From positions 3,061,912 through 3,125,911 of the forward strand of contig CM026553.1 in the NCBI GenBank assembly GCA_015143295.1: a stretch of 64,000 nucleotides of DNA, written 5' to 3'. This document shows, piece after piece, positions 7,034 through 63,253 of this stretch; the first letter of the stretch is position 1, and the number at the start of each line of letters is the position of its first letter. The translations under genes were made by a program, and so were the position numbers. The notes below the pieces were generated by a model, which saw only the letters and a list, made by a program, of their open reading frames with translations, was not told where the DNA came from and did not search any database. Source of the stretch: Tetracentron sinense (lineage: Eukaryota; Streptophyta; Magnoliopsida; Trochodendrales; Trochodendraceae).

Positions 7034-7059
7034 TGTAAGCACCCAATTTTTACATCCCT

Positions 7060-7400: not shown

Positions 7401-7555
7401 CCTACCACCCTAGGGCATGGGCCCAAGACCCATGTATAACCCTAAGGCCCCTAGGGCTTAAACCCTAGTCTGGGCCCAAACAGGGCCCAAAAATTCAAAA
7501 AAACCCAAGTCTTACCGCGTGCAAATAGGGCCAGACCTGTTCTGGGTAAAAACCA

Positions 7556-9835: not shown

Positions 9836-9853
9836 TGGCGACTCTTCTAGGGA
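9836..9853 (+). other. Primer-binding site of element B
   Basis: TGGCGACTCTTCTAGGGA begins four bases after the 5' LTR. It resembles the TGGCGACTC-type sites used by Ogre-lineage elements and is complementary to the 3' end of a tRNA, probably tRNA-Arg. The tRNA identity is from family knowledge; the position is seen directly. Confidence 0.65.
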
Positions 9854-11999: not shown

Positions 12000-12104
12000 A
12001 GTCCTGTACTCACCGAGCATGCATCAATGAAAAATCTTTTTTGGCATTCTCTTTCTTGCAAATCATTCATATTCATGTTTAGTCGTTGCATTCATTTTAG
12101 TTGT

Positions 12105-24228: not shown

Positions 24229-24897
24229 TAAATAATTCGAATCATCATCATGATTCTCAACTGTCAATCCAACCTAACCATAAATTCATGATGAAATCTA
24301 TTACAATGTCTTGAACTTCAAATCAAAATACTGATAATTTAATTCCCAGAAAATGGGCAATGATGCAGATTCCATTCACCCTCGGGATAATCACCAGCTG
24401 GATTTTCTTTTTCCTCTTCGTACTCTTCCTCTTCCTAAGGTCCTGTGACACAAATTTTGAACCTAGAACTTGCCAACAACAAAGGCATCGGCTAAGTAAC
24501 AAGTTACTACGTGTATATAAACTCCTAACTAACAATATAACAATATTAATATAAAACACAAATCATTATTTAACAGTACATGTGAGCATATAAACCAATC
24601 AGAGTGCGGAAGCATAATTTCTAATCAATCCTTATATGTGTTCACTTGTACTTATTTTTCTTACTTGTCTATCTTGTTCGTGAGTGTATTCAACAACATG
24701 CACTATATAATAACTTAAGATAACTCTACCCCATATATTGGATAGAGACTAACATAGACCCTACTTACCGAGGTACCACATGGTTTACACATTATCCGGT
24801 GCATATGACTTGTCTACACATTATCCGGTGTATACGGCTTGTCTACAGATTATCCGGTGTATATGGCTGATCTGCACATTATCCGGGGCATACGAGT
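24229..24897 (-). mobile_element. LTR copy A, second part (Tekay-like, minus strand)
   Basis: Continues the LTR interrupted at 7033, collinear with the reverse complement of the element G LTR. It includes three to four direct repeats of ACATTATCCGGTG-type sequence with CATATGACTTGTCTAC (24785-24890) that are also in G at 56820 and 62400-62520. It ends near 24897 where LTR copy H begins. The rest of this LTR is absent. Confidence 0.85.
24339..24488 (-). pseudogene. LTR micro-ORF, copy A (one nonsense codon)
   Basis: Same 50-codon frame as in element G: starts MPLLLASSRFKICVTGP, then a TAG where all relatives but K have W, then EEEEYEEEKENPAGDYPEGEW and a terminal SGN before TAA. A single TGG-to-TAG change breaks it. 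Length and stop position equal those of the G copies. Function unknown; see the first finding. Confidence 0.65.
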
Positions 24898-27758: not shown

Positions 27759-29244
27759 TGAAACTAGGTTTTTCCATAGTCTAGAATCACCCTATTTCAA
27801 CAATTTTTTTGTAATATCCGATTCTTTAAATTCCTGCAAAATGCAATGCACAATGGTATGTTGGATGTCGATTCCTCACTCGGGTTAGTTATGTTAGTGC
27901 AATAAAGAAAATAAAAGAGCATAAAAAGCTTAGAAAAAATGGAGAGATTAGAATGATGGAATAGTATTTTTAAAACATTTTTCTTTTGTGTTTGAAAAAT
28001 ATTCTAGATCTAAATAAATTAAATAACTTGAAGTAGAATAATTAAAGGCATCGAAGCATGAAATAATAAGCATAAAAAAAGAGATTTATTAATTAAAACT
28101 AAAAGGTCACTTATAAATTTTAAACTAAAAATAACTGCGAGTACATCCGAAATCAAAGAAAGCTTGAACTAAGCATAAATGCAAACTTCCAAGAAGAGAG
28201 AAAGAGATATTCAAGAGCCAGAGTCTGCACCAGCGTGTGTAGAGATGAGGTGAGACGTCCAGATGGTATGGATGGGGTGAGAAAACTCGTGGTTGATAGA
28301 GATGGGGTGAGAAATGAAGTTTTTTCCCTATGCGTAGGGATGGGAACGTGAGAGCCCTAAGCGTAGGGCATAAGAGAGAGAGGTGAGAAGAGAAGTTAGG
28401 GTGAAGGAACCATCTCTGAGGGAGAGAGAGTGGTGAGTATTTATAGAGGGTGGCTAGGGTTTTATGAAGATTAGGGTTAGAAAAATGGGCTAGGGTTTTT
28501 AGAAAGAGATGGGTGATTAGGATTAGGGTTTGGTGATATGGGTGACTAAGATTTAGGCTAGAAGGTGGTGGCTAGGTTTAGGAAAAAGAGATGGGATTAG
28601 GGTTTTTGAACTAACTAGAGTTTTGAAAAGTAAGGATGGATGGCTAAGATGATTAAGGTTGGACGAATAGGATTAGAAGAGAGAGATTAGGGTTTTGAGA
28701 AATAAAAGAGAAAAAGAAGAGAAAATGATGGTAGAGGGTTTTGAACCCTAGTCTCTGGTATTGTTCTCCCATAAATCTCACCAACTGAGCAAACTGACAT
28801 ATTGTGTCTTGTATTGTGACTTTTAATATTTTGGTCTCTTTTTTTGGAGATTGACACTTCTGCTCTCTTGGTCTTCGTTCTGACTCTGTGATTTTCTGGC
28901 TTATTCCACACTTGGCATGCATCTACTTGGTATAACCTGTTGGCTCTTTAGTCATTGGTAATGGCTTTAGTGGTAACTACGATCTCAGGTTCTTGAGAAT
29001 CATCCAATTAGGTTTCCTAGGACAGTTAAAACACGTAATAAGAGTTCATTAAGATAACCTTGTATCTAGTCTTTCAAAAACATGTCAAATTTATGCAAAT
29101 GTATCATTTTTACCAGAAATGTGTGTTATGCAATGGAAGGAACCCTTACGTAGAAAATCTTGTAAAAATACAAGTTTTACATAAAACAATGTGATAATGC
29201 TAAAAGGATAATCGTGAAAAACAAACACTTTTAAGCGAATATCA
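27759..29244 (-). repeat. 3' LTR of element D (left copy)
   Basis: 1486 bp, collinear with 34219-39758 once the insertion there is removed. It contains the TATA-like word TATTTATA at 28438-28445 (minus strand TATAAATA) and a tRNA-like A/B-box segment at 28737-28792. Confidence 0.88.
28737..28792 (-). promoter_or_regulatory. tRNA-like pol III A and B boxes in D LTR
   Basis: On the minus strand TTGCTCAGTTGGTGAG (A box) is followed about 35-40 nt later by GGGTTCAAAACCC (B box, consensus GGTTCRANNCC). Spacing and order match a tRNA or tRNA-derived SINE head. The right LTR keeps the same pair at 39247-39302, so it predates the insertion of D. Confidence 0.55.
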
Positions 29245-34216: not shown

Positions 34217-35119
34217 TTTGAAATAAGGTTTTTCCATCGTCTAGAATCACCCTACTTCAACAATTTTTTTTGTAATATTTGATTCTTTAAATTCCTGCAA
34301 AATGCAATGCACAATGGTATGTCGGATGTCGATTCCTCACTCAGGTTAGTTATATTAGTGCAATAAAGAAAATAAAAGAGCATAAAAAGTTTAGAAAAGA
34401 TGGAGAGATGAGAATGATGGAATAGTATTTTTAAAACATTTTGCTTTTGTGTTTGAAAAATATTCTTGATCTAAATAAATTAAATAACATGAAGTAGAAT
34501 AATTAAAGGCATCGAAGCATGAAATAATAAACATAAAAAAACAGATTTATTAATCAAAACTAAAAGGCAACTTACAAACTTTAAACTAAAAATAACTGTG
34601 AGTACATCCGAAATCAAAGAAAGCTTGAACTAAGCATAGATGCAAACTTCCAAGAAGAGAGAAAGACATATTCAAGAAACAGGGCCTGCACAGTGTGTAC
34701 AGAGATGAGGTGAGACGTCCAAATGGTATGGATGGGGTGAGAAAACTCGTGGTTGATAGAGATGGGGTGAGAAATGAAGTTCTTTCCCTATGTGTAGGGA
34801 TGAGAACGTGAGAGCCCTAAGTATAGGGCATAAGAGAGAGAGGTGAGAAGAGAAGTGTAGAACCCCGGAACTTTTTGTATATAACTTGTAATGTGTGTCA
34901 AGGCGTGACACCTTTGTAATCTCCATTTTCGTGAAATGAGAATTGAAAATTTTGAAAATTGTTTCAAGAATGCTATAATTAATTAAATAAATTATTTAAT
35001 AATGTCTATAAGCCTTGAAAGGGTCCTAGTCATGTTTAGAAGAGGTCAAAAGGGAAGTAGGATAAGTCCAAGTAGCAGGAATGGGTGAAAAATGGACTGG
35101 GTGTCGAAATTTGCAGAGC

Positions 35120-35344
35120 ACCGATTGCTCGGTCCATATTAGCGATCGATCGGTCCACAACCGATCATCGGTAGCTATCGATTAGTGCACTTTTTTGTAT
35201 GGGGAAAAATTCCAGAGAGCATGTTTTTAACCGGTCGATCGGTCAAGAACACCGATCGCTCGGTAAGCGATCGATCGCTCGGTATTGACCACCGATCAAT
35301 CGGTATATCGCGTTTTTTGGGCATTTTCACCTTGGCTATAAAGG
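35120..35344 (+). promoter_or_regulatory. Palindrome cluster plus TATA box of LTR E
   Basis: Seven near-copies of the 14-bp palindrome ACCGATCGATCGGT: 35120, 35142, 35160, 35230, 35251, 35267 and 35291, several with one or two changes that keep the ACC...GGT outer bases. TATAAAGG is at 35337-35344, 33 bp after the last copy. Probably a factor-binding array of the core promoter (inference). Confidence 0.7.
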
Positions 35345-35928
35345 CTTGCTCAAGCCTAAGGGTTTCATAAACCCTTAGGGCAGCATTTTGAGAGAGAGTA
35401 GAGGAGAGAAAGAGGGTTTCTAACCTAGGGTTTTCACTTGAGAAGGAATCAAGGGTTTGAGAACCCTAGATCATTACAAGCTTGGATTTCTTCAAGTACA
35501 CGGCTCAAGCACGTGAGGAGCACGTTCTCCAAGCTAGGGCAGTGACTCCACGCACATGTTGGAGGGTTTTTCTCGCCTTTTCAAGGTCGGTACCTTGTGC
35601 TACCCTCCTAGTCATGGTTTCCTCTTTTCCTTCCTTATTCTTTGTTTTCCCTAAACTATAACTATGCTATGTGTAGAACCCCGAATCCGCATTTCACTAA
35701 GTAGTGAATAGTATGTGAATAGTGCTCAAGTGTGGTTTTGTATACTAACGGGCCTTATGTTAATATACGTATTTGGATTTATGGTGTGCATGTTTTGATA
35801 GGTCCCCATATTCTTAAGAAGTGTGTTTGAAGCATACGAGGGTGTTAGAATTGGTTTGGAGAAGATTCAAGTAGTGAAAATAGGGTTTTTGCAGAAAACA
35901 GGGGTCCATCGATCTCTCGGTGATAACC

Positions 35929-36159
35929 TCCGATCGACCGGTCCACTACCGATCGATCGGTAGCTATCGACTGGTTAACTTATTTGTATGGGGAAAAAGT
36001 GCAGAGAGGGTGTTTTCAACCGATCGACCGGTTGAAACCACCGATCAACCGCTAAGCCACCGATGGCTCGGTCTGTACCACCGATCGATCGGTCATACAC
36101 AAATTTTCTTCATTAAGGGTGTTTAACACTTTAGCCATTTCCCTTTTGCCTATATAAGG
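35929..36159 (+). promoter_or_regulatory. Palindrome cluster plus TATA box of LTR F
   Basis: ACCGATCGATCGGT or close variants at 35929, 35948, 36019, 36040, 36059 and 36080 (perfect at 35948 and 36080). TATATAAGG is at 36151-36159, 58 bp after the last palindrome, the same distance as in LTR H. Confidence 0.7.
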
Positions 36160-37081
36160 TTTGTTCGTGCCTTAGGGTTTCAGAAACCCTTAGTTCACTA
36201 TTTTGAGAGATTTTGAAAGGGAGAAGAAGGAGAGGAGCTAGGTGGTTGCTCAAGCTTGAAGGAGAGATCAAGTTCTTCCTTCTTTTGGTGTTTCTCATCC
36301 AAGAACTCAAGGTTCTTGCTTGTTCAAGCTTTTGGAATCAAAGTCTTTGATTTCATCAAGGTAGATACACTCTACTACCAATCTTGCAATACTACTAGTT
36401 ACTAAATGTTGTTCTTCTCAATCTATACTACATATATATATCTTGATTGGTTATGGTGTGAAAGGATGTTGTTTTATACTTGGATGTAAGATAGCACTAT
36501 TATGCATTCTATGTGTTTGTGTAAATGCCTCTAAGGGTTTTGGGTATTTAAACATGATATTACTCTTGTATGCTCCATGTCTCGCATGAATCGATGTTTT
36601 TCATGGATTTCCTCACTGCTACAAAAAGGGTTTTCAAACAAATGACTTGTAAGGAATGATTCTAAGTAACTCCATAATTTGTCTAAGATCGGTTCACTAG
36701 CTCTAAGGATCATAATACATACTCACAAGAACTCCATGATATCTCTAAGATCGTCTCATAAGCTCTAAGGAACATAAACGAAATGTTCTAAGATCTCTAT
36801 TGTCTTGGCTCTATGAATATGCTCTATGGTATCTCTATGTCTCTACGGATCATAAATGACTCTAAGAAACTCTACGAACTCTATGAAATCTAAGAACTCA
36901 CAAGGCTATGATTATCGTATGACTCACACGGTTATGGTTTTGGTTTCAGATTTTGGATTTAATCACATATGCTATACATGATTTCTACGCTTGATATGCT
37001 TTAAGGATTTTAGTCTCCATGCTTCGTATGCTCTATGCTATATTGCTTTATTGTTATTAGTTTGTATACGCTGAGTATTCC

Positions 37082-37246
37082 ATGCTCAGCCGATATTTGT
37101 TATCATAGGCAGGTGCTTGGGCTCCATTTGATCTATGTGGTACGGAACCTTGGGTAGAGGAGGAGTACTTCGACCCGGAGCCTTCCATGGATCACTACCA
37201 GGATGATGGTTCATTAGATAGGCGTTGGGACTTTGACTTCTGTTGA
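37082..37246 (+). pseudogene. LTR micro-ORF, copy F (one nonsense codon)
   Basis: ATG at 37082 begins MLSRYLLS, followed by TAG at 37106-37108, then AGAWAPFDLCGTEPWVEEEY, DPEPSMDHYQ and RRWDFDFC before TGA at 37244-37246. The frame after the TAG keeps the family motif. One change has inactivated it. Confidence 0.6.
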
Positions 37247-38494
37247 TCTACGTATACTTGATACTATGCTTTGTTAAGTGAGAGTGGGACTTGTCCACTC
37301 CACCTTTTTGGATACTCATGCAGTTGTATTTTGTTGGTTCACGTGTGGACCCAGTTATAGGAGTAATTACTTTGCTTCCACTATGTTTTGTAATGTTGGC
37401 TTCCGCTATGCATTGTATATTGTTTTCGCTGTATACTTCTGTGTACTCTGACAGTTTTCTATGTGTGCCTTATGTATCATATTGGAGGTATGATACAACG
37501 GTCACGAGTCAAAGTATCCCTAACTCCTAGGGGGTATTTTGGGTCGTGACACTATGAGTTGGGATGCTTGAATGGAGATGGATGTTGGGCGAAGGATGCC
37601 ATGTGTATGTGATGTGATGAATGAAATGGGAAGGGTATTATACCAATAATAAACACACATGTATGTTGTGAACATAAATCCACCTAGAAAAGCATGGTGT
37701 AGGCTTTAACAAATAATGTACGCACCACATGTTTGATGAAATGCCAAGGTGAAGAAATGAGTTGTAAATCAAGAAATGCATGCTTAAAAGCGTTTTGAAT
37801 TGCTAGGGTTATGATAGTGTGATTAATTGCTTTCTCTAATGGCATGAATATTTACTCGTTTAAATTAATGATATTCTATGCATTGTTGAAATCCTAAATG
37901 TCATATTTAATTCTAAGTGAAAGTATGTACACGATTCTACGAGCACGGCATGCATGACATGGTTTACCGGTGTTTTTCAAGAATAAGGATGTTAGAGGTA
38001 GGACATATTTTACGATATGTTTTGCCTCACTTTTGACAAGAACAAGAACAAGCATTGCACATGAGGGAGTTTACACTTCCCTCTCATCTCATTGAAAGAG
38101 GGATCTTCCCTCACTCACAAGTACATATCATTGAAAGAAGGGTCTCCCTTCCCTCTCAAGTGCATCTCACAAGTGCATCTCACAAGCGCATCTCACAAGT
38201 TACATGAGTATGTTTAAATTCCAAGCTAGCACGCATGACATGACACGCATGACAGACAAGCAAGACAGACATAACAAGTTTTTCAAGCACGTAAAGAGTA
38301 TTTTAAGTCAAGTTAAGTGCACGATGATTTCAAGAGTTTTATCGGCTTTTATGTGATGCAAGCATGAAAATATACTATTTTACTTTCCTGTTATTATATG
38401 AATTGCTTCCTGCTTTATATATCGTTATTGTTATGTTATGACTGTTGGTTAGCATTTGGTACACGCTGAGTATTTCATGCTCAATTATACATTT

Positions 38495-38614
38495 ATGTCG
38501 GCAGGTAGTGAGGGAGCTGCTGCTCCATTTGACATCTACGCTCCTGGCCCATGGGTGGAGGAGGAATACGTTGAGGAACCTGTGGAGGAACCTCCGGTAG
38601 AGGGCTACTACTAA
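38495..38614 (+). CDS. Conserved LTR micro-ORF, copy E, 39 codons
   Basis: Open frame MSAGSEGAAAPFD, YAPGPWVEEEYVEEP, then PPVEGYY and TAA. The start at 38495 is chosen because copies L and G' share it; an in-frame ATG at 38477 would add six residues. The product would be a small acidic protein with no signal peptide or membrane segment. It lies about 285 bp before the LTR end, so in a full element it would be in the RNA leader upstream of gag. Against copy L, 15 sense codons differ and 10 of those differences are synonymous, which argues for selection on the protein. Function unknown. Confidence 0.6.
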   Translation: MSAGSEGAAAPFDIYAPGPWVEEEYVEEPVEEPPVEGYY

Positions 38615-39763
38615 GTGGTAGATTCTAGGCTACTGTGGGTGAGTTTGAGAGAGTATATTCATGTATTTTGGTGGGCCTGTCTGCACCTTCTTTTGTTTTT
38701 CCCTTTTGTACAAGCTTGGATCATGTATATATGCTTAAAGGTTTGGTTAGTCTTCCGCTGTGCTATGTAGTTTATGTTTCCGTTATTATGTCCTCTTTGT
38801 ATATGCTCCAGGTATTTTTGCAGGTTGGTTTGTCAAACAAGTCATGATAAGTCGTCCAAGATTCACTCTAACTCCTAGGGTGGGTTTTGGGGTGCGACAA
38901 GAAGTTAGGGGGAAGGAACCATCTCTAAGGGAGAGAGAGTGGTGAGTATTTATAGAGGGTGGCTAGGATTTTATAAAGATTAGGGTTAGAAAAATAGGCT
39001 AGGGTTTTTAGAAAAAGATGGGTTGCTAGGATTAGGGTTTAGTGATATGGGTGGCTAAGATTTAGGCTAGAAGGTGGTGACTAGGTTTAGGAAAAAAAAA
39101 ATGGGATTAGGGTTTTTGAACTAACTAGGGTTTTGAAAAGTAAGGATGGACGGCTAAGATGATTGAGGTTGGTCGAATAGGATTAGGAGAGAGAGATTAG
39201 GGTTTTGAGAAACAAAAGAGAAAAAGAAGAGAAAATGATGGCAGAGGGTTTTGAACCCTGGTCTCTGGTATTGTTCTCCCATAACTCTCACCAATTGAGC
39301 AAACGTCAACATTGTGTCTTGCATTGCGACTTTTAATATTTTGGTCTTTTTTTTTGGAGATTGACACTTCTGCTCTCTTGGTCTTCGTTCAGACTCTGTG
39401 ATTTTCTGGTTGAGTCTACACTTGGCCCGCATCCACTTGGTATAGCCTGTTGGCTCTTTAGTAATTGGTAATGGGCTTTAGTGCTTAACTACGACCTCAG
39501 GTTCTTGAGAATCATCCAGTCAGGGTTCCTAAGACAGTTAAAATACGTAATGAGAGTTTAACAAGATAACCTTGTATCTAGTCTTTCAAAAACATGTCAA
39601 ATTCATGCAAATGTATCATTTTTACCAAAAATGGATGTGTTATGCACTGGAGGGAACCCTTAAGTAGAAAAGTTTGTAAAAATGCAAGTTTTACATAAAC
39701 GAGTGCGATAATGCTAAAAGGATAATCGTGAAAAACAAACACTATTCAGCGAATATCAGGGCT

Positions 39764-42304: not shown

Positions 42305-44556
42305 AATATTCATCACACACATTTCTCTTTACATATACCATATTCATCACATGCATTTCTAGTATCCGAACTATGATTGAATGGAACATACTAGCATCAT
42401 CACATATACAACATTTCACATACTTTTCAAACTTTCTTTCATTTCTTTTATTACACTTAACAAGTGCCTGGACTATGACGGAATGGAACACACTAGCTTC
42501 ATTTCTTGCTTTTACTTTACTTAACTAGTGCCCAGGCTATGATGGAACGAAACACACTAGCATTAGTCACTTTACTTGACTAGTGCCCGGACTATGGCGG
42601 AACGGAACACACTAGCAACTTTCACTTGCTTAACTAGTGTCCGGACTATGATGGAACGGAACACATTAGCATCATATCTTTTACTTTACTAGTGCCTGAA
42701 CTATGATGGAACGGGACAAACTAGCCTCTTTTCACTTGCATACTAGTGCCCGGACTATGATGGAATGGAACACACTAGCATCAACACACATATCATATCA
42801 TACACATACTTTACAAGCAAGTCCTAAAACCCCTTAAATCTAAATCACTCTTTAAGAAAAATATACTTTGATCAAACCCTTCTTTGAGCAAACAATACCT
42901 TGAGCAAAACCTATACTTTGATCGAAACAATACTTTAAACAAAAACCATACTTCGATCAAACCGATACATTGAACAAAACTCATACTTCGATCAAAACGA
43001 TACTTTGAGCAAAACCCATATTTTGAGCATAACAACACTTTCAACGAAAATCATACTTTGAGCAAAACAACATTTAATCAGAGATCATAATTTAAGAAAA
43101 AATCGTACTTTGAACGAAACAATTTTTTGAATGGAAACCATACTTAATTTAAGCGAAATCATACTTTTCAAAACTATATACTTTACTTTATTCGAAAACC
43201 ATATACTTGTATCATTTTCTTCATGTCTTTTATTTTCACTTTCCTATCTTTCATTCTTTTACTTCACTTATCCGAGTCAATCCGCTTACTTTACTTGGGA
43301 ATATCAGGTGGTTATTAGTGCTGGTACCTGGTCTAACGTACAGTAAACACCCACCCAATAACATCATTACTTGAGAATATCAGGTGGTTAGTGGTGTACT
43401 TTGTGCTAACACACTAAACACCCACCCAATTGCATCATTACTTGGGAATATCAGATGATTAGTGGTGTACCTTGTGCTAAAACACTAACATCCACCCAAT
43501 AGCATCATTACTTGGGAATATTAGATGGTTAGTGGTGTACCTTGTGCTGACACACTAAACACCCACCCAATAGCATCATTACTTGGGAATATTAGGTAAT
43601 TAGTGGCATACCTTGTGCTAACACACTAAACACCTACCCAATAGCATCATTACTTTTCTTTATTTCATCTTCTTTACTAGTCTTTTCGGATATCCGTACT
43701 TATAAAAACCTCGATCATGCATTTACACGTGCTCATATACATTTGTGAGTGGCATATAGGTAATAGGGTTTAACACATAACATATGCATTTCCATCATCA
43801 ATTCTTTATTCTAAGCATGCTCAAATTAGGCAATAAGACTTTAACAACATAGCATATGCATTTCGATTATCAATTCATTATTCTAAGCATGCTTGCATAT
43901 CATTTAGGCATACATTTTCAATTACTATGCATGCTCTTTGTAAAACAAGTACATCATTATTCTCCTTTTCATCAATAACCTTGCACATGAACCAATTAGT
44001 ATTATATTCGTAGGCATTTCATCAAACATTTCATTCTCATCATTTACTCTAATATATAATCCATTCACGTCATATAATGAAGCTTAACTAATTTAGTTTT
44101 CACTATTTTCATGCTTTCATTTTCATTTCTCAAAATGAATTCACAATAGTAATCTATAATATAACAAACTCTTCAATCCATCATAGAATAGCATACATTT
44201 CATTTCGATTTAAGCTAAGGAATTACAACAACAAGGTTTAGTAGAGAGTGTCAACTTGAAATCATTAATAATTATGCTTTCACAATTACTTTAAATGTTA
44301 CTTTCATAACAAAACCACCTAGTGTAGAATATCCACTTCAATTTATCAAACAAGCATACTTTGGAATTCATATTTCTAATTAGGGCATTATAACAAGTAT
44401 ATCTAGTAGAGAGTAATTGCAACTTTTCATAAAAAAAATCCATACATTCAATCATTTCCGATTAAAGAATTCATAACAAAGCTAGTTTGTAGAATGTATC
44501 TACCTTACGAGATCGATTCCCTGTGATCTAGAGCTTTAGAAAGAGTTAAGAATTTC
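42305..44556 (-). repeat. Left LTR of element K (partial, 3' LTR in element sense)
   Basis: Collinear with 49860-52220 of the right LTR, including three tandem blocks: ACTAGTGCCCGGACTATGAT units (42355-42785), CATACTTTGATCAAAACGAT units (42850-43190) and GGGAATATCAGGTGGTTAGT units of about 66 bp (43290-43655). Both ends are missing: the left is replaced by copy J and the right (U3, with the promoter) is lost at about 44556, where the sequence passes straight into K coding sequence. Confidence 0.82.
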
Positions 44557-44980: not shown

Positions 44981-45278
44981 GAATATGTCGCGACCCAAAA
45001 CCCACCCTAGGAGTTAGAGTGAACTTTGGACGACTAATCATGACTTGCTTGACAACCAACCTGTAGAAACCCACAGAGCATATACAATAGAGGATATAAA
45101 TAGCGGAAACATATTCTAACATAGCACAGCGGAAGTCTAAACAAACCTCTATGTATATACGGATCCAAGTTTAATACAAGGAAATCAAAACAAAGAAAGT
45201 GCGGACATGCCCGCCAAAATACATGGATATAATCACTCATGCTCACCCACAGCTAATCCACTCAGAATCTAACTCCAC

Positions 45279-45398
45279 CTACTGATAACCCTCTATGGGA
45301 GGTTCCTCCAAAGGCTCCTCGACGTACTCCTCTTCCACCCATGGACCAGGAGCACAAACATCAAATGGAGCAGCAGCTCCCTCAGAACCTGCCGACAT
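45279..45398 (-). CDS. Conserved LTR micro-ORF, copy L, 39 codons
   Basis: Minus strand, ATG at 45398-45396. Reads MSAGSEGAAAPFDVCAPGPW, then VEEEYVEEPLEEPPIEGYQ and TAG. Same start, same length class and same acidic composition as copies E and G'. A GCTGAG/CTCAGC hairpin with TATTCCATG loop lies about 15 bp upstream (45410-45430), as in the other copies. It would be a leader ORF upstream of gag in an intact element. Fully open although the surrounding elements are dead. Function unknown. Confidence 0.6.
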   Translation of the reverse strand: MSAGSEGAAAPFDVCAPGPWVEEEYVEEPLEEPPIEGYQ

Positions 45399-45714
45399 AA
45401 GAAGTACGGCTGAGCATGGAATACTCAGCGGGTACTAAATACTAACCAACAGTCATAGTATACAGATAGCATACATAAAGTAGGAAACAATTTGCATATA
45501 TAGAACATGAACAATTCATATTATACAAGGAAGTAAAGCAATTTATAATCATGCTTGTATTTCGTAGAAAACCGATAAAACCTCTCGAAAACATCGTGCA
45601 CTTGACTTGGCTTGAAATATCTTTTCGTACTTGAAAACTTGTCATGATTTTCTTATCTTATCGTATCATGCATGTCATGTGTGTCGTGCCATGTCATGCT
45701 TGCTTGGAAAAGTA

Positions 45715-46050
45715 AACTACTTGTGAGGGAAGGGAGACCCTTCTTCCTAAATGCCCATGCTTTTCATGCCGTGTATCATGCTTGCTTGTTCGGAAAAGTA
45801 ATCTACTTGTGAGGGAAGGGAGACCCTTCTTCCTAAAATGCTCATGCTTGTCATGCCATGTCATGTCATGCTTGTATCATGCTTGGAAAAGTAAACTACT
45901 TGTGAGGGAAGGGAGACCCTTCTTCCTAAATGCTCATGTCATGTCCTTTCACTTGTGAGGTGTCCTTGTGAGATGTACTTGCGAGGGAAGGGAAACCCTT
46001 CTTATGATATGTATGTACTTGCGAGGGAAGGGAGACCCTTCTTATGATAA
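45715..46050 (-). repeat. Tandem block in LTR L
   Basis: Five units with GAGGGAAGGGAGACCCTTCT spaced 55-130 bp apart. The equivalent block in G' is at about 55280-55480, and a related one in E is at 38085-38215. Confidence 0.8.
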
Positions 46051-46959
46051 TGCATGATTGGCTTGTCCTTGCCAAGAGCGAGGTAAAACATATCGTAGGA
46101 TATGTCCCACCTCTAACCATGTTCTTGAAAACCTCGATAACTCATGTCATGCATGCCGTGCCCGTGGGAACCGTGTACATACTTGCATTTAAATTTAAAG
46201 ACGACATTTGGGTAATTTCGCAACACATATAACATCAATGATTGAGCAATGTAATATTCATATCATTTAGGGAAAGCAAGAAACACACTATCATAGGCCC
46301 TAGCAATATTCAGAATTTATTAGGCATGCATTTACTAATTTACAGCTCACTTTATTCACCTTGGCATTTCATCAAACATAGTGTGTTCATTATGGATTTA
46401 CCCTACAACATGCTTTTCTAGATGGGTTTTACTCAAATCATACATGTATGTTCATTATTGGAACAATGCCCTCCCTATTTTAATCATCACCACACAACCA
46501 TTGGCATCCAATCGCCCATTCCATCTCCATTCACCATTCACAACCATCCATTTCATAGCACATGTGTAAATGAAGGAAAATAAAGAGAAATGAAGGGAAA
46601 GGAGGAACTATAACTAGGAGGGTAGCAAGAAGTACCGACCTTGAAGAAATGAGGAAGAAACCCCTTTCCAAAAACGACCGTGTAGCTACTGCCCTAGCTT
46701 GGAGAACGCTCTCCACGAGTGCTTGAGCCGAGATCTTGGAGAAGAGCCGAGCTTGAAGTAATCTAGGGTCTCAAAACCCCCTTGATTTCTCTTCCAAAGA
46801 CAAACCCTAGGTTGGAATCGCCTTCTCCCTTTTCTCCTATTCTCTCAAACTCTCTAAGTGTCGAATGATGCCCTAAAGGCTTGGGTTAAACTCTTAAGGT
46901 AAGAGTGAACCGACCAAAAGACCATAATACCCTTACTAAATTTCTGCAAGACGCGAGTA

Positions 46960-47125
46960 CCAAGCACGTTGAGCTGTGAATAGTGCCAAACACGTTGTGC
47001 TGTGAACAGTGCTGAACACGTTGTGCTGTGAACAGTGCCAAACTCGTTGTGCTGTGAATAGTGCCAACTCGTTGTGCTGTGAATAGTGCCAACTCGTTGT
47101 GCTGTGAAGGGTGCCGAACCCGTTG
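46960..47125 (-). repeat. U3 tandem array of LTR L, about 24-bp unit
   Basis: Six to seven units; plus strand CTCGTTGTGCTGTGAATAGT. In element sense ACTATTCACAGCACAACGAG. Same unit as the longer array in G' at 53975-54330. It occupies the position where E, F, H and J have GATCGATC palindromes. Confidence 0.85.
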
Positions 47126-47689
47126 TCCGTTGTGTTGTGCCTAGTGCTGAGCTCGTTGTCCGTTGTCTTATGTACAACGTGCCCGTCATGAGCTATACAG
47201 CGAACACGTTGTGCTGCACAACGTACCCGTTGTCTGTTGTACAACGGATGCACAACGTATACGTTATCAGAGTACATTGTCTATGCGTTGTCTGTGCCTT
47301 ATCAGAGCACGTAGTCAGAGCACGTTATCAGAGCTACGTCCTCAGCGCATAACCGAGCTACGATTGCCTGCAGGCCCAGACTGTTTTGGCCATATCTTTT
47401 AACTCGTTCGTCCGATTTTGACGATTCAACTTGCTTTGGGTTCGTACTTCGAAAAGGAACATTTCTGACATTTCGAAATTTCCAATTTCTTCCTTATTTA
47501 TTAATTATACCTCTTTAAAGGCAAAATGGTAATGAAAGTGTCATGTATTAAGCATGAAAAAGTCTGGGGCTCTACAGAATATTCACTCACTACATCATTT
47601 CATACAAAAGTTTCTATCGAAGTACTTCACACCACAACATTAGGTGCCTGGGCAACCTAATTTGACATGGCAAAGACTCAGCCCTAGTT

Positions 47690-49076: not shown

Positions 49077-49093
49077 CCTATGCTCTGATACCA
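49077..49093 (-). other. Primer-binding site of element K
   Basis: Minus strand TGGTATCAGAGCATAGG, four bases inside the LTR end at 49098. It is the tRNA-Met-type site common in Tekay and copia elements. This proves the minus orientation of K. Confidence 0.88.
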
Positions 49094-49360: not shown

Positions 49361-49519
49361 TCACCACTCAAAGCAATAACAGAGTCGCCTATCAAAGGCC
49401 CTCCCCTCCACAGGATGACCCAAAGTAGGATCCTCCTCCAAGTGCTCTTCCTCGAACCTTGGTTCCGGAGTGCAGATGTCAAGTGATGTACCTACTGAAA
49501 TAACAATTCGGCTGAGCAT
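49361..49519 (-). CDS. Conserved LTR micro-ORF, copy K, 52 codons
   Basis: Minus strand, ATG at 49519-49517. Reads MLSRIVISVGTSLDICTPEP, then RFEEEHLEEDPTLGHPVEGR and ends CYCFEW before TGA. The core D-I-C-x3-P-x2-E-E-E-H-x-E-E aligns with the other copies; the W after P is R here. The ATG lies in the loop of the GCTGAG/CTCAGC hairpin. Open throughout. The most diverged copy, so its alignment gives the most weight to the conserved core. Confidence 0.5.
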   Translation of the reverse strand: MLSRIVISVGTSLDICTPEPRFEEEHLEEDPTLGHPVEGRAFDRRLCYCFEW

Positions 49520-49959
49520 GGAATACTCAGCGTATACAAACCACTAAATAACCATGTTTTGAACATCAATAATAACATGCTCGCATATAGATAGAATAAT
49601 GCAGTTCAAAGCAAAACCAAGCAATATAACAATGCTTTAATCAGAGTACGGAAGCCATACTTCTTTTTCAAAACTAACATGTGCCTAATTTTTGAAAATC
49701 ATACTTCAATCAATACTTTTCTAATCTCAATTCAATCTCATATACACTAACTTTTCAAATCACATGCTTTTCGAAGTTTGCTTTAAAACAATACTTTCAT
49801 CATTTACATCATGCCTTTCTTTTTACAAGTAACATATATCACACATGCATTATTTCTTCATAGGTACCATATTCATCACATGCATTACTCTTTACATATA
49901 CCATATTCATAACATGCATTTCTCTTTACATATACCATATTCATCACATGCATTTCTAG

Positions 49960-51325
49960 TAACCGAACTATGATTGAACGGAACATACTAGCATCATCAC
50001 ACATACAACATTTCATATACTTTACAAAATTTCTTTCATTTCTTTTATTACACTTAACTATAGTTCCGACTATGATGGAACAAAACATACTAGCTTCATT
50101 TCTTGCTTTTACTTTACTTAACTAGTGCCCAGACTATGATGGAATGTAACACACTAGCATTTGTCACTTTACTTGACTAGTGCCTAAACTATGGTGGAAT
50201 GGAACACACTAGCATCTTTCACTTGATTAACTAGTGCTCGGACTATGATAGAACGGCACGCACTAGCATCCTATCTTTCACTTTACTAGTGCCCAGCCTA
50301 GGATGGAACAGGACACACTAGGCTCTTTTCACTTGTATAACTAGTGCCCGGACTATGATGGAACTGAACACACTAGCATTATCGCACATATCACATCATA
50401 CACATACTTTACAAATAAGTCCTTAAAGCCCTTAAATCCAAATCACTCTTTGAGCGAAACATACTTTGATCAAACCCTTCTTTGAGCAAACAATACTTTG
50501 AGCAAAACCTATACTTTGATCAAAATGATACTTTAAACAAAACCCATACTTCGATCAAAACGATACTTTGAACAAAACCCATACTTTGATCAAAACGATA
50601 CTTTGAGCAAAACCCATATTTTGAGCATAACAACACTTTGAGCGAAAATCATACTTTGAGCAAAACGATAGTTTAATAAGAGATCATACTTTAAGCAAAA
50701 ATTGTACTTTGAACGAAACAATTTTTTGAATGAAAACCATACTTCAAGCGAAATCATTCTTTTCAAAATTATATACTTTACTTTACTTTCTTCGAAAACC
50801 ATATACTTTTATCATTTTCTTCGTGTCTTTTACTTTCAATTTCCCATCTTTCATTCTTTTACTTCACTAATCCAAGTCAATCCTTCTTACTTTACTTGGG
50901 AATATCAAGTGGTTAGTGCCGGTACCTGGTCTAACGTACACTAAACACCCACCTAATAACATCATTACTTGGGAATATCAGGTGGTTGGTGGTGTACCTT
51001 GTGCTAACACACTAAACACCCACCCAATTGCATCATTACTTGGGAATATCAGATGATTAGTGATGTACCTTGTACTAACACACTAACATCCACCCAATAG
51101 CATCATTACTTGGGAATATCAGATGGTTAGTGGTGTACCTTGTGCTAACACACTAAACACCCACCCAATAGCATCATTACATGGGAATATCAGGTGATTA
51201 GTAGTGTACCTTTTGCTAACACACTAAACACCCACCCAATAGCTTCATTACTTAGGAATATTAGGTGATTAGTGGTATACCTTGTGCTAACACACTAAAC
51301 ACCCATCCAATAGCATCATTACTTT
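49960..51325 (-). repeat. Three consecutive tandem blocks in K right LTR
   Basis: Block 1 (49960-50385): about seven 60-bp units with ACTAGTGCCCGGACTATGAT. Block 2 (50450-50800): about ten 34-bp units with CATACTTTGATCAAAACGAT. Block 3 (50893-51325): six to seven 66-bp units with TTACTTGGGAATATCAGGTG. The same blocks and order are in the left LTR. Confidence 0.88.
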
Positions 51326-52376
51326 TCTTTCTTTCATCTTCTTTACTTGTCTTTTCGGATACCAGTACTTATAAAAACCTCGATCATGCATTTACGCGTG
51401 CTCATATATATTTGTAAGTGACATATAGGCAATAAGGGTTTAACACATAACATATGCATTTCCATCATTAGGTCTTTATTCTAAGCATGCTCACATTAGG
51501 CAATAAGACTTTAACAACATAGCATATGCATTTCATTATCAATTCATTATTCTAACCATGCTCGCATATCATTTAGGCATACATTTTCAATTACTAAGCA
51601 TGCTCTTCATAAAACAAGTGCATCATTATTCTCATTTTCATCAATAACCTTACATATGAACCAATTAATACTATATTCATAGACATTTCATCAAACATTT
51701 CATTCTCATCATTTACTTTAATATATAATCCATTCACATCATATAGTGAAGCTTAACTAATTCAGTTTTCACTATTTTCATGCTTTCATTTTCATTTCTC
51801 AAAAGGAATTCACAATAGTAATCTATAATATAGCAAACTATTCAATCCATCATAGAATAACATACATTTCATTTTGATTTAAGCTAAGAAATTACAACAA
51901 GAAGGTTTAGTAGAGAGTATCAACTTCAAATCATCAATAATTATGCTTTCTCTATTACTTTAAATGTTAGTTTCATAACAAAACCACCTAGTGTAGAATA
52001 TCCACTTCAATTTATCAAACAAGCATGCTTTGGAATTCATATTTTTAATAAGGGCATTATAACAAGTATATCTAGTAGAGAGTAATTACTACTTTTCATT
52101 AAAAAAAAGTCATACATTCAATCATTTCCAATTAAAGAATTCATAACAAAGCTAGTGAGTAGAATGTATCTACCTTACGAGATCGATTCCTTACGATCTA
52201 GAGCTTTAAAAAGAGTTGAGAATGCTTGAAGGATGGATTCCAACTTGAGAAAGGAGATCCAAGCTTCCTCTTGCTCCTCCAAGAACTTTCTTTAGAAAAC
52301 TTAGGGGTTTGCTCCCTTCTTTGCCAAATTAGGTTAGATGGACTTAGAATATCCTAAAACCCCGAATTAGGTGTAC

Positions 52377-53107: not shown

Positions 53108-53974
53108 TATATGACGTAAAGTAGTTATGGTTCAAATTTTAGGTTAATCCGATAATAATTGAGTTCTATAGAATTATTCAAAGTTTAGTAGCAAAATTAT
53201 AAATAGGATGAATAGTAACCATGTGAATAGTGTTTCAAGAATAGTATTTTTAGCAATTCTAATCACTTTCCAACTCTAGTATTGCCTATATAAGGACCTT
53301 AACTCGTGAATTTTAGGTATTTTATCATTCTAAAACTTATTGGAGAAAAAAAGGAAAGAAAAACCTAGGGTTTCTCAAGGAGTTCTCAATAGAGAAGAAG
53401 GTAGAGAAAAGTTATTTTTGAGAGATCTAAAAGGGAAAATCAAAGGTTTTGTAAGGAGAAGAGCGTGAAGGCTTAAATCAAAGCCATTCGCAAGTGTTTG
53501 ATCATAGGGAAGCGATCGAGAGAGGTAAATATAGGTTCCTTCCTACCAATAGGAATGATTTTTAATATAAACAACGAGAAATAGTTGGATTTAAAGAAAG
53601 AAATAAGATCAAGCATGTCATTTTATGAATCCCTTATGAAAGTGTTTATAATTTTAAGAGATGTTTTCTTATGATGTTAGTGTAGAACCCCGGACCTTTT
53701 CACAGTTAATACATGACACTCTCGTTGTCATTTTTGCCTTTTTAAGAGGTATAATTAATAAATAAGGAAGAAATTGGAAATTTTGAAACGTCAGAAATGT
53801 TCCTTTTCGAAGTACGAACACAACACAAGTTGAATCGTCACAATCGGATGAACGAGTCAAAAGATATGGCCAAAACAGTCTGTACCTGTAGGAAATCGTA
53901 GCACAGACAACATACTCTGATAACGTATACTGTGTGCATCCGTTGTACAACTCACCACGGGCACGTTGTGCAGC

Positions 53975-54330
53975 TCACCACGAGTTACACTATTCACAGC
54001 ACCACGAGTTGCACTATTCATGGCACCATGAGTTGCACTATTCATGGCACCACGAGTTGGCACTATTCACAGCACCACGAGTTGCACTATTCATGGCACC
54101 ACGAGTTGCACTATTCATGGCACCACGAGTTGGCACTATTCACAGCACCACGAGTTGCACTATTCATGGCACCACGAGTTGCACTATTCACAGCACCACG
54201 AGTTGCACTATTCATGGCACCACGAGTTGCACTATTCATGGCACCACGAGTTGGCACTATTCATGGCACCACGAGTTGCACTATTCACAGCACCACGAGT
54301 TGGCACTATTCACAGCACAATGTGTTCAGC
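53975..54330 (+). repeat. U3 tandem array of LTR G', 24-25-bp unit
   Basis: About fourteen units of CACGAGTTGCACTATTCATG or the variant with TTGGCACTATTCACAGCAC. Long reading frames across it in all three frames are by-products of a period divisible by or close to three. Short related words (ACTATTCA, GAATAGTG) occur upstream of the TATA box in several other LTRs here. Confidence 0.92.
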
Positions 54331-55784
54331 ACTATTCACGGTCCTCGCGTCATTGCAGAAATCCCAGTAAGGGTATTACGGTCTTTTGGTCAGTTCACTC
54401 TTACCTTAAGAGTTTAACCCGAGCCTTTAGGGCTTCATTCGACACTTAGAGAGTTTGAGAGAATAGGAGAAAGGGGAGAAGGCGATTCCAACCTAGGGTT
54501 TCCATTTTGGAGAGAAATCAAAGGGTTTTGAAACCCTAGATCAACCTCCAGCCCATTTTTCTTCAAGATCAAGGCACAAACTCGTGAGGAGCATCTCCTC
54601 AAACTAGGGCAGCAGCTACACAGTCGTTTTGGAAAGGGGTTTCTTCCTCATTTCTTCAAGGTCGGTACTTTTTACTACCCTCCTAGTTATAGTTCCTCTT
54701 CTCCCTCTATTTCTTTTGATTTTTCTTTCATTGATACATGTGCTATGAGATGGATGAATGGTGAATGGAGAATGGTAAATGGTGAATGGTGAATGGAGAT
54801 GGAATGGGCGATTGGATGCCAATGGTTGTGTGTGATGAACAAATGGGGAAGGGCATTGTTCCAATAATGAACATACATGTACGATTTGAGTAAAACCCAT
54901 CTAGAAAAGCATGTTGTAGGGTAAATCCATAATGAACACACCCTGTTTGATGAAATGCCAAGGTGAATAAAGTGAGCTGAAAATTTGTAAAGGCATGCCT
55001 AATAAATTCTGAATATTACTAGGGCCTATGATAGTGTGTTTCTTGCTTTCCCTAAAGGATATGAATATTACATTGCTCAATCTTTGATGCTACATGTGTT
55101 GTGAAATTACCCAAATGTCATCTTTAAATTTAAATGCAAGCATGTACACGTTTCTCACGAGCACGGCATGCATTACATGATTTATCGAGGTTTTCAAGAA
55201 CATGGTTAGAGGTGGGACATATCCTACGATATGTTTTACCTCGCTCTTGGCAAGGACAAGTCAATCATGCATTATCATAAGAAGGTTTCCCCTTCCCTCG
55301 CAAGTACATCTCACAAGGACATCTCACAAGTGAAAGGACATGACATGAGCATTTAGGAAGAAGGGTCTCCCTTCCCTCACAAGTAGTTTACTGTTCCAAG
55401 CATGACATGGCACGGCATGACAAGCATGGGCATTTAGGAAGAAGGGTCTCCCTTCCCTCACAAGTAGTTTACTTTCCCAAGCAAGCATGACATGGCATGA
55501 CACACATGACACGCATGATACGATAAGATAAGACAAACATGACAAGTTTTCAAGCAAGGAAATGGTATTTTCAGTCAAGTCAAGTGCACGGTGTTTTCAA
55601 GGGTTTCATCGGTTTTTATGAATTCAAGCATGATTATATACTCCTTTACTTTATTATCATGATATGAATTATTCCTGTTTTATATGCTTGAATTGTTTCA
55701 TGCTTTATATATGCTATCTGTATGCTATGACTGTTGGTTAGTGCTTAGTACCCGCTGAGTATTCCATGCTCAACCGTACTTCTT

Positions 55785-55901
55785 ATGTCGGCAGGTTCTG
55801 AGGGAGCTGCTGCTCCATTTGATGTTTGTGCTCCTGGTTCATGGGTGGAAGAGGAGTACGTTGAGGAGCCTTTGGAGGAACCTCTCGTAGAGGGTTATTA
55901 G
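55785..55901 (+). CDS. Conserved LTR micro-ORF, copy G', 38 codons
   Basis: ATG at 55785. Reads MSAGSEGAAAPFDVCAPGSW, then VEEEYVEEPLEEPLVEGY and TAG. Nearly identical to copy L; the final residue Q of L is the stop codon here (CAG to TAG). About 290 bp before the LTR end. Small, acidic, no membrane segment. Function unknown. Confidence 0.6.
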   Translation: MSAGSEGAAAPFDVCAPGSWVEEEYVEEPLEEPLVEGY

Positions 55902-57161
55902 TAGGTGGTGTTAGATTCTGAGTGGATTAGCTGTGGGTGAGATGAGAGTCAGATTTATGTATTTTGGTGGGCATGTCCGCACTTTCTTTTGGATTCTTTT
56001 CGTATAAACTGGGATTGATTATGTATATACATAGAGGTTTGGTAGACTTCCGCTATACCATGTTAGAGTATGTTTCCGCTGTTTTGCCCTCTCTTGTATA
56101 TGCTCTGTGGGTTTTGCAGGTTAGTCGTCAAGCAAGTCATGATTAGTTGTCCAAAGTTCACTCTAACTCCTAGGGTGGGTTTTGGGGCGCTACAGTTAGT
56201 ATGTAAATCAACAAGGAGATAGGAAAAAATTGTGTGGTTTATGTATGGTGGGTAATGAATGAAGGGATGATTGTTGGATTGGATGAAATGAGTATGAGTT
56301 TGATTAAAAATTGTGATGTATTATTAAATTAGGTTTTTTTAAAAAAAAATTAATTTTATAAAAATTATATACCGAAAATTGATATATGATTAATGGAATT
56401 GTTTCATTATTTTATTGTTGAAAACCTTATAAAACATGTTTTTAGATTGATCAATTATGAAAAATTGCATTTGCTTAGATTTATGTATGATGGACAAATT
56501 GCATGATGATATATGTTGATTAAATTAAACCTTGAATTATGATTGTGTGACTTAGGGGTATTATCATGGCGGCGTTAGTCGTTATGATAAGCTTTCGAGA
56601 GCCTTAACCAATAATTCTAGTGTGATTTAATTAATGACTATCATTGTTTCACTCACACTTATTCATGAAAATAAATATGCACAAGCATAATAAAAAGCAA
56701 GATCATAAGTATTATACAAGTATACAAGCACACGAGCATAACTGTATGATTGAGTTTGCACAGCCTGAGTACCAACAAGCCTAAGATCAAAGCAAGACAA
56801 GCTGTATGCATCGGATAATGTGTAGACAAGCCATATGCACCGGATAATGTGTAAACCGTATGGTACCTCAGTAAGTTGGGTATATATTAGTCTCTATCCA
56901 ATATATGGGGTAAAATTATTTGAAGTTATTGTACTATGCATGTTGTTGGATACATTCATGAATAAGAAAAAAAATAAGATAAGTAAGAAAAAAATATGTA
57001 CAAATGAGCACGTCTAAGAATTAAATTGAAATTATGCTTCCACACTCTGATTTGTTTATATGCTTACATGTAATGTTAAATTCTAATTTATGCTTTATAT
57101 TAAATGTTGTTATATTGTTAGTTAGAAATTTATATATGCGGAGTAACTCGTTATTCAGCCG

Positions 57162-57311
57162 ATGACTTTGTTATCGGCAGGTTCTAGGTTTGATATTTGT
57201 ACCTCAGGACCTTGGGAAGAGGAAGAGTACGAGGAAGAAGAAGAAGATCTAGCAGGTGATTATCCCGATGGTGAATGGAATTTGTCTCGTTGGCCATTTC
57301 TTGGGAATTAA
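57162..57311 (+). CDS. Conserved LTR micro-ORF, copy G 5' LTR, 49 codons
   Basis: ATG at 57162. Reads MTLLSAGSRFDICTSGPW, then EEEEYEEEEEDLAGDYPDGE and WNLSRWPFLGN before TAA. It shares the D-I-C-x3-G-P-W-x-E-E-E-Y core with E, F, L and G', but has a longer C-terminus like copy A. Its partner in the 3' LTR differs at ten codons, all non-synonymous. About 290 bp upstream of the primer-binding site, so it lies in the genomic RNA leader. Confidence 0.6.
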   Translation: MTLLSAGSRFDICTSGPWEEEEYEEEEEDLAGDYPDGEWNLSRWPFLGN

Positions 57312-57602: not shown

Positions 57603-57614
57603 TGGTATCAAAGC
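57603..57614 (+). other. Primer-binding site of element G
   Basis: TGGTATCAAAGC, four bases after the LTR end; the standard tRNA-Met-type site is TGGTATCAGAGC. One G-to-A change. Confidence 0.85.
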
Positions 57615-60979: not shown

Positions 60980-63253
60980 TGTAAAGACCCAAAACTTGTT
61001 TTTCTTGAAACTAATGCATATTAAATGAAAATATGGAGATTTTGCTTAAACCGTTGTAATTAATGTTAATTGATTTCCATGATTGTTTAATTGATGATTA
61101 ACTATGTATAAATATATCTATGTAAAGTTTTAACTAAAGTTATAAATATTGTATGACCAATGGTTAAGGTTTAAAGCAAATAAAATTGTCAAAATAGGTA
61201 AAATTTCCTCTATCATAAGAGGGGTATTTTGGTCATTTTTATTTATCCAAAATTTATGAAAATTTTAAGATAAATTCTATATGACCTAAAGTAGCTATAG
61301 TTCAAATTTCAGGTTAATCCGATAAGAATTGAACTCTATAGAATTATTCAAAGTTTAGTGGCAAAACTATAAATAGGTGGATGAATAGTGTTTCGTGAAT
61401 AGTGTTTTTAGCAATTCTAATCACTTTCCAACTCTAGTATTGTCTATATAAGGACCTTAACTCATGAATTTTAGGTATTCTATCATTCTAAAACTAATTA
61501 GAGAGAAAAAGGGAAGAAAAACCTAGGGTTTCTCAAAGAGTTCTCAATAGAGAAGAAGAGAGAGAAAAAATTATTTTTGAGAGATCTAAGAGGGAAAATC
61601 TAAGGTTTTGCAAGGAGGAAAGTGTGAAGGCTTAAATCGAACCCATTTGCAAGCACTTGATCATAGGGAAGCGATCGGGAGAGATAAATATAGGTTCCTT
61701 CCTACCAATATGATGATTTTTAATATAAATAAGGAGATATAGTTAGATTTAAAGTAAGAAATAAGATCAAACATGTCATTTTATTAATCCCTTATGAAAG
61801 TGTTTATGATTTTAAGAGATATTTTCTTATGATGTTAGTATATAAATTAACAAGAGGAAAGAGAAAATTTGTGTGATTTATGTATGTTGGATAATGAAGG
61901 AAGGGATGATTATTGGATTAGATGAAATGAATATGAGTTTGATTAGAAATTGTGATGTATTATAAAATTAGGTTTTTTTTGTAAAATTAATTTTATAAAA
62001 ATTATATACCGAAAATTGATACATGATTAATAGAATTGTTTCATTATTTTATTGTTGAAAACTTTATAGAACATGTTTTTAGATTGATCGATTATGAGAA
62101 ATTATATTTGCTTAGATTTATGTATGATGGACAAATTGCATGATAGTATATGTTGATTAAATTAAATCGTAAATTATGATTATGTGACTTAAGGGTATTA
62201 TCATGGCGGCATTAGTCGTTATGATGAGCTTTCGAGAGCCTTAACCAATAATTCTGGTGTGATTTAAGTAATGACTATCATTGTTTCACTCACACTTATT
62301 CATGAAAATAAATATGTACAAATATGATAAAAAATAAGATCATAAGTATTATACAAGTACACGAGCATGACTGTATGATTGAGTTTTGCACGGCCTGAGT
62401 ACTAACAAGCCTAAGATCAAGGCAAGTCGTATGCACCGAATAATGTGTAGACAAGTTGTATACACCGGGTAATGTGTAGACAAGTCATATGCACCGAATA
62501 ATGTATAAACCGTATGGTACCTCGGTAAGTAGGGTATATGTTAGTCTCTATCCAATATATGAGGTAAAGTTATTTTAAGTAATTGCACTATGCATGTTAT
62601 TGGATACATTCACGAATAAGAAAGACAAGTAAGATAAGTAAGAAAAAAATAAGTACAAATGAGCACGTCTAAGAATTAAATTGAAATTATGCTTCCGCAC
62701 TCTGATTTGTTTATATGCTTACATGTAATGTTAAATTCTAATTCATGTTTTATATTAAATCTTGTTATATTGTTAGTTAGGAGTTTATATACGCGGAGTA
62801 ACTCATTACTCAACCGATGACTTTGTCATCGGCATGTTTTAGGTTTGATATTTGTGCCTCAGGACCTTGGGAAGAGGAAGAGTACGAGGAAGAAGAAGAA
62901 GATCCAACAGGTGATTATCCCGATAGTGAATGGAATTTGGATCGTTGGTCATTTCTTGAGAATTAAATTATTAGTATTTAAATTTGGAGTTCAAGACATT
63001 GTAATAGACTTAATTTTGGATTTATGGTTATGATGAATTGATAGTTGAGAATCATGATGAATTATTCGAATTATTTATTATGTTTTAGTTTTAATTTGAG
63101 ATAGTAGATTTGATTATGATTAATTAAAGAAAAAAATTTATGTTCATATTTTAGATTGCCTTAAATGCTTATGATTGGATATTATGATGGTTTAATGGTT
63201 AAATCACGTGCCAAGGTCTCACTTTAATCTAGGTGGGATTTTGGGGCGCGACA
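60980..63253 (+). repeat. 3' LTR of element G
   Basis: 2274 bp, TGTAAAGACCCAAAAC to GGGGCGCGACA. TATATAAGG at 61445-61453. Contains the direct repeats of TGTATACACCGGGTAATGTG type (62415-62520) and the micro-ORF. Confidence 0.92.
62817..62966 (+). CDS. Conserved LTR micro-ORF, copy G 3' LTR, 49 codons
   Basis: ATG at 62817. Reads MTLSSACFRFDICASGPW, then EEEEYEEEEEDPTGDYPDSE and WNLDRWSFLEN before TAA. Same length as the 5' LTR copy and still open. The ten codon differences between the two, all non-synonymous, arose after insertion in a dead element and show what unselected change looks like here. Confidence 0.55.
   Translation: MTLSSACFRFDICASGPWEEEEYEEEEEDPTGDYPDSEWNLDRWSFLEN

Follow-up and report, generated by a model that had tools for sequence, protein, structure and literature searches.

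The window analysed here, a stretch of 64,000 nucleotides from Tetracentron sinense, holds eight copies of a short acidic reading frame, each of which lies within a long terminal repeat (LTR). On the forward strand the frame is found by translation in LTRs E (38495..38614, with a constrained core that starts from F-D-I at 38528), F (37082..37246), Gp (or G', 55785..55901), G (57162..57311) and H (62817..62966), and on the reverse strand in A (24339..24488), L (45279..45398) and K (49361..49519), the last of these belonging to a sublineage that shows no clear constraint. Four of the hosts are solo LTRs with 5-bp target duplications, namely E (34856..38899, forward, AGAAG), F (35672..37551, forward, CTATG), L (44986..47576, reverse, TATTC) and Gp (53681..56194, forward, GTTAG); F is nested in E, which it interrupts, and Gp sits within the G LTR. 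After K, a 5' LTR, comes the primer binding site TGGTATCAGAGC (49082..49093, reverse), G and H are the 5' and 3' LTRs of one old element, with a degenerate primer binding site after G (57603..57614, forward), and A is split by a large insertion. The eight copies are not all independent, given that G and H come from a single element and that the four hosts named above are solo LTRs. From the end of the frame to the end of the LTR there are 263–305 bp in the copies whose LTR end could be placed, A being split.

Other features of the window concern the history of these LTRs. Empty sites are present for the insertions of E (28382-28396, compared with 34856/38900) and Gp (61834, compared with 53681/56195). 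An element of ~17 kb (7033-24222) sits inside LTR A, the U5 end of which is at 6863-7032; the LTRs of this element, of ~2.7 kb (7083-9831 and 21565-24223), are 83% identical, and its ORFs at 15820-18721 are RT-like and integrase, with an RT match under the Pfam cut-off. Two copies of a segment with internal tandem repeats (42306-44553 and 49903-52223), about 91–92% identical, flank LTR L and part of the K element, and tandem units of ~73 bp occupy 53976-54341 in LTR Gp, where the comparison of L with Gp also gives a high coding-like score.

Translation of all eight frames agrees with what the first-pass annotation of this DNA had described. In six copies (E, L, K, Gp, G and H) the frame begins with an ATG and is uninterrupted, and A and F carry one nonsense codon each: in A a TAG replaces the W codon, while the TAG of F lies upstream of the conserved, constrained core and occurs in none of the 20 other F-family copies that were fetched. 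When recounted from the alignment, the comparison of E with L gives the reported 15 differing sense codons, 10 of them synonymous. The core motif that had been put forward needs qualification, since it fails in A (K for D, a stop for W), in K (P-R) and in Gp (S-W).

The elements that bear the frame are probably chromodomain-bearing Ty3/gypsy elements of Tekay-like type. The one element tested for the F family, L139, has Retrotrans_gag, RVT_1, SH3_Tf2-1 and Chromo domains, and its frame is open in both the 3' LTR and the 5' LTR (L134), pieces of which are 93.3% identical over 299 nt; the frame thus occurs together with recognisable gag, RT and chromodomain, though the gag and pol frames of this element are interrupted. 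The G/H element yielded protease and SH3_Tf2-1 only. The primer binding site, which we take to be of the initiator-Met type, is exact in K, L035, L037, L139, L140, L146, L150 and L157, and has one mismatch in others.

Within the window, the changes among copies follow the codon. Over the 26 codon columns common to all eight copies, Fitch changes at codon positions 1, 2 and 3 number 32, 19 and 44 (column-shuffle p 0.0026). An RNAcode-like scan for coding-like segments placed the frame at the top in the last 1.35 kb of E, L and Gp (55.6, with the next segment at 26.0) and in the eight-copy alignment (30.0, with the next at 20.2); in a separate scan of five sets for other coding stretches it ranked first in three, second in one, after a minus-strand segment, and fourth in K. 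In G, H and A the RNAcode-like scan listed a segment in another reading frame of the same area at the top and did not list the frame, nor was it listed in the whole-LTR comparison of L with Gp, in which other segments scored higher.

The selection acting on the frame was then measured across the genome. About 130 extra copies were fetched from the same 1.16-Gb assembly by DNA similarity, which is not specific to the frame, among the best ~40 places listed per query, and a codon model was fitted on trees built from LTR sequence, with stops treated as missing, a treatment that lowers omega (dN/dS) somewhat. In 42 copies, which include 13 of the 38 E-family copies (E itself and 12 loci) as well as L and Gp, the 17 core codons give an overall omega of 0.32–0.38 and an internal-branch omega of 0.14–0.17, whereas the overall values for plus frames 1 and 2 are 0.90 and 2.53 (48 stops in the latter), with 0.82 and 2.34 on internal branches. 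Equal conservation in the other plus frames, where overall omega is at least 0.90, was not seen. For the three minus frames the values are 0.98, 3.47 and 0.51, and the last of these is a weaker shadow of the frame.

The same constraint is found within families. In delta, 21 copies with both LTR and gag give an omega of 0.40 over 36 codons (p 7e-11), compared with 0.57 for gag and 0.75–1.43 for five non-coding windows, one of which stands at 1.43 with p 0.04; L084, whose LTR is partly missing, L093, a copy of L092, and K and L043 were left out of this comparison. Thirty-six distinct delta copies give 0.42 over 35 codons, the duplicate rows L039 (equal to L035) and L042 (equal to L026) having been taken out of these fits of upstream and core codons. 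The F family, which is less decayed, gives 0.26 over 38 codons in 21 copies, the other two plus frames standing at 1.30 and 2.32, and for the 38 copies of the E family the value is 0.34 over 28 codons. In the G family omega is 1.16 and not different from 1, as expected for copies that decay after insertion, and frame+1 gives 0.59 (p 0.01); the within-family test is uninformative. A scan of delta from LTR to gag gave strong coding signals at two places, namely the frame and gag; a leader window with a marginal value (omega 0.54) proved on inspection to have stops and indels in most copies, and nothing else in the leader or the 3' portion of the LTR consistently stood out as coding. Taken together, codon-position bias, omega below 1 and specificity to the frame strongly support protein-level purifying selection in several families, as had been claimed from the window copies.

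It could be argued that the constraint is exerted at the nucleotide level only, by an enhancer or packaging element whose purine-rich sequence imitates coding. The codons of the E residues do form a purine tract, and one minus-strand frame has the omega of 0.51 mentioned above. The frame tests largely refute this notion, which we hold to be very improbable: the codon-position bias persists when all-purine columns are removed (p 0.011, 23 columns), plus frames 1 and 2 have an omega of 0.90 or more, and the frame-0 scale in two-omega fits is 0.98–1.94 times the LTR tree, so that synonymous sites are not slowed.

The frame is not universal in these LTRs. The four beta copies (L015-L018) all have the same two 1-nt deletions that break it, and the four gamma copies (L019-L021, L027) all share one stop and one deletion; both lineages spread after losing the frame, and it follows that the frame is dispensable in some sublineages or supplied in trans. 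Across K, beta and gamma (16 copies) omega is 1.12 over 35 codons (p 0.57) and 0.70 over the 17 core codons (p 0.19), and the K/beta fits over 35 codons range from 1.12 to 1.18, with no significant constraint, although neutrality is not clear from the core values of K/beta and K alone comprises five copies. With beta and gamma taken by themselves the core has an omega of 0.50 (p 0.025), possibly a trace of older constraint.

The start of the frame is another matter. In-frame ATG codons are located in a hairpin loop (K and part of F), just before TCGGCAGG (E and L/Gp) or in the next loop (G), and they are present in 37 of 38 E copies, in both L/Gp copies, in all three of G, H and A and, by eye, in 23 of 23 G-type rows. 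Past the last upstream stop, only 6 of 36 delta copies have an ATG in frame, in five of them more than 14 codons upstream of the core, and at one homologous place delta has an in-frame CTG in 18, CTA in 7, TTG in 7, CTT in 2, ATG in 1 and nothing in the remaining one. The F family has the loop ATG in 10 of 21 copies and ACG (8), ACA (2) or ACC (1) in the other 11, and the copies without it are constrained (omega 0.20, p 2e-8) as are those with it (0.27). The idea of a micro-ORF defined by its ATG, the same throughout, is consequently not supported as the whole story, given that the position of the ATG differs between families and that constraint is kept in the 30 delta and 11 F copies that do not have one; a conserved-peptide uORF started by AUG would describe E, L/Gp and G/H/A, and it does not describe delta or those F copies.

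The N-terminal boundary of the constraint leads to the same conclusion. The codons ahead of F-D-[IVL]-C have an omega of 1.28 in delta, against 0.42 for the core (p 1.5e-8), of 1.23 in E, against 0.34 (p 4e-4), and of 0.81 in F, against 0.26 (p 0.07). No start codon is kept across families, and the codons that precede F-D are unconstrained in delta and E. In the F family, the second codon before F-D-L (GCT, GTT, ACT, TCT, ATT or AAT) varies at positions 1 and 2 and mostly keeps T at position 3.

Two adjoining hairpins can be drawn by eye upstream of the frame: SL1, formed by CTGAG..CTCAG, and then SL2, formed by GCCGAA..TTCGGC in delta and by GCCGAT..ATCGGC in F and G. The region folds beyond shuffled sequences in four of five window copies, with z from -3.07 to -4.35, the latter for the stretch of F that contains SL1 (37070..37090, forward). 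In E, SL1 (CTGAG..CTCA, 38466..38484, forward) lies upstream of the frame and is weak (z -0.41), and in G the two hairpins (57138..57179, forward) end at CGGC just before AG|GT. A TATA-like TATAACA is found ~31 columns upstream of SL1 in delta, and the RNA of the element would thus probably start at or just before SL1.

On this basis, the reading that we prefer, tentatively and at somewhat less than an even chance, is that Tekay-like elements carry in the R region of the LTR an acidic module translated as a leader micro-ORF with a flexible AUG or near-cognate start. The cap, SL1, SL2 and the frame would take up roughly the first 200 nt of the transcript. The module would have some 28–40 residues with the core F-D-[IVL]-C-x3-P-W-[VE]-E-E-E-Y, followed in several families by an acidic middle and L-D-R-W-P-Y. 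Translation would start in or near the loops of SL1 and SL2, at AUG in E, L/Gp, G and part of F and at near-cognate codons elsewhere (CUG in delta, ACG or UUG in F), and with no constraint on the N-terminal tail the start could drift. The product would be a small acidic peptide bearing aromatic residues, and our guess is that it acts in trans on the expression of the element or on the basic Gag/RNA complex; action in trans is favoured over mere ribosome stalling because constraint spans the whole core.

The spacer lengths bear on this proposal. In K and most beta copies the spacer is 1 nt shorter, so that the delta-type CTG falls out of frame, and these copies show no significant constraint; the spacer of E is as short, but E has an ATG and is constrained. 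The comparison is weak and no more than suggestive, and could be understood if the start is flexible. Other observations speak against a leader micro-ORF: the CTG of delta differs in half of the copies, and its letters are kept where they are out of frame, which may mean that the RNA sequence is what is preserved, and scanning would be impeded by a stable hairpin close to the cap. In addition, the AG that follows SL2 is kept in nearly all rows compared, whether or not the frame has been lost, and a splice site would explain that too.

A spliced origin of the product has to be considered in this light. The YAG|GT after SL2 would serve as a 3' splice site within the 3' LTR, and a donor in the leader or in gag would join an upstream start to the frame in a multiply spliced RNA like those of retroviral accessory genes. 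This proposal would account for the absence of a conserved AUG, for the persistence of the AG in frame-less families and for the fact that constraint in delta lies only downstream of AG|GT. Splicing of the leader is itself plausible: the leader, an AU-rich stretch from the primer binding site to gag, ends in most of the delta and F copies inspected with [CT]T[CT]AG (e.g., TTCTCAG) directly before the gag ATG, by eye a good 3' splice site, so that gag may come from a leader-spliced RNA. For the barley element BARE, a spliced Gag RNA has been reported (PMC3735527). In six F-family leaders (L139, L140, L146, L150, L157 and L158), GGAAGTAAGT is present in four and CTCAG or CTTAG stands just before the start of gag in five, which outlines a candidate leader intron.

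Nevertheless, we consider the spliced exon, although a serious competitor, less probable than the leader micro-ORF. Eight of the nine codons ahead of F-D in E, which jointly have the omega of 1.23, follow the AG, and a constraint that starts exactly at AG|GT is weakened accordingly; moreover, the pairing of GCCGAA with TTCGGC in SL2 accounts for the conserved CGGC. The best in-frame donor, in early gag, is not conserved in delta, where GT is present in 14 of 23 rows and missing from the open copies L092 and L094, and an in-phase join from the start of gag to the LTR acceptor, attractive at first in delta and F, is disfavoured on this count, although another donor may serve. In F the GT is present in 20 of 21 copies (L140 being the exception), and neighbouring Gly codons have GT too. 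A donor in the F leader (GTAAGT/GTAATT, phase 1) was set aside as well, with no upstream in-frame ATG at any of the five sites tried. No partner exon was found, and the LTR-to-gag scan returned no clear third coding signal.

A further proposal, which we regard as improbable, is that the frame is a regulatory uORF that acts in cis, its nascent peptide controlling the translation or packaging of gag. Its place at the 5' end of the predicted leader, upstream of gag, speaks for this, and so does constraint that extends to codons near the stop in delta and F. The C-terminal length varies, however, with earlier stops in E, L and Gp than in delta or F, and several hundred nucleotides that contain other AUGs separate the frame from gag.

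Neither the peptide nor the DNA gave a match in Pfam, Rfam or IMG/VR, and a first protein search with the window peptides only returned nothing at E<=1. A profile built from the wider alignment, in keeping with the motif search that the first-pass annotation had suggested, then gave five distant relatives of 44–87 residues on ENA contigs of 647–1261 bp: P0007-P0010 (E 4.2e-6, 1.3e-4, 1.4e-4 and 0.028) and, subsequently, P0011 (1.1e-3). P0007-P0009 have in common C-A-P-x-P-W-V-E-E-[ED]-Y-V-E-E and D-Q-W-P-Y-P, and P0010 and P0011 retain A/D-P-x-P-W and E-E-Y. P0009-P0011 contain M-A-G-E-Q-L and P0007 and P0008 begin with M-F-x-I-L-A-x-E-Q-L, starts that are biased by a gene caller that demands one. 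Ahead of its core P0009 has Y-P-L-S-I-R-I-L-S, the codons of which would fit SL1. These contigs may mean that more than one plant carries relatives of the frame. The broader claim, that Tekay-like chromoviruses of more than one plant encode inside their LTRs an acidic regulator that acts in trans, much as small retroviral accessory proteins do, has no conserved AUG and is made from a near-cognate start in a structured leader close to the cap or as the last exon of a multiply spliced RNA, is in our opinion doubtful.

All of this suggests that the acidic stretch is an undescribed small product of the element that is made in an unusual way. LTRs are usually taken as non-coding, and here a coding stretch within them is selected about as strongly as the start of gag; a frame without a dependable start codon would escape the ORF-based annotation of elements. 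The frame gives access to the question of how translation is kept apart from packaging in chromoviruses, and it can serve as a marker that distinguishes source lineages, which have kept it, from those that have lost it. A literature search, with preprints and most subscription papers outside its scope, found no described protein inside a Tekay LTR, and the available part of a review of aORFs makes no mention of Tekay (PMC7264820).

Among the closest known systems are related chromoviruses. An ORF0 or 5'aORF is reported in RIRE3, RIRE8, Retrosat2 and group 2 of sunflower Tekay, and the likeness consists of an extra element-encoded protein upstream of gag; theirs is a separate ORF upstream of gag-pol, of 402 aa in sunflower (PMC3485330, PMC11728184). 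The present frame differs in having ~40 residues, in lying inside the LTR and in having no reliable ATG, and delta shows no comparable coding signal for a long ORF between the 5' LTR and gag. Protein-coding LTR sequence is also reported in group A of CRM, where the polyprotein extends into the 3' LTR, which encodes the CR motif (PMC3059260). Unlike that motif, the frame lies deep in the LTR and is not continuous with pol, for an in-frame stop occurs no more than 57 codons upstream in each copy examined.

The use of splicing by an LTR retrotransposon has parallels in the subgenomic Gag RNA of BARE (PMC3735527) and in Cer1 (PMC10309623), as reported. The product here would differ from both as an LTR-encoded C-terminal exon with a hypothetical junction. 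Conserved-peptide uORFs and the short ORFs of pararetrovirus leaders are known systems, in which shunting and non-AUG starts occur. The peptide is, as far as we know, unrelated to theirs, and with its predicted start and leader position the frame would resemble them as a short ORF in a structured 5' leader.
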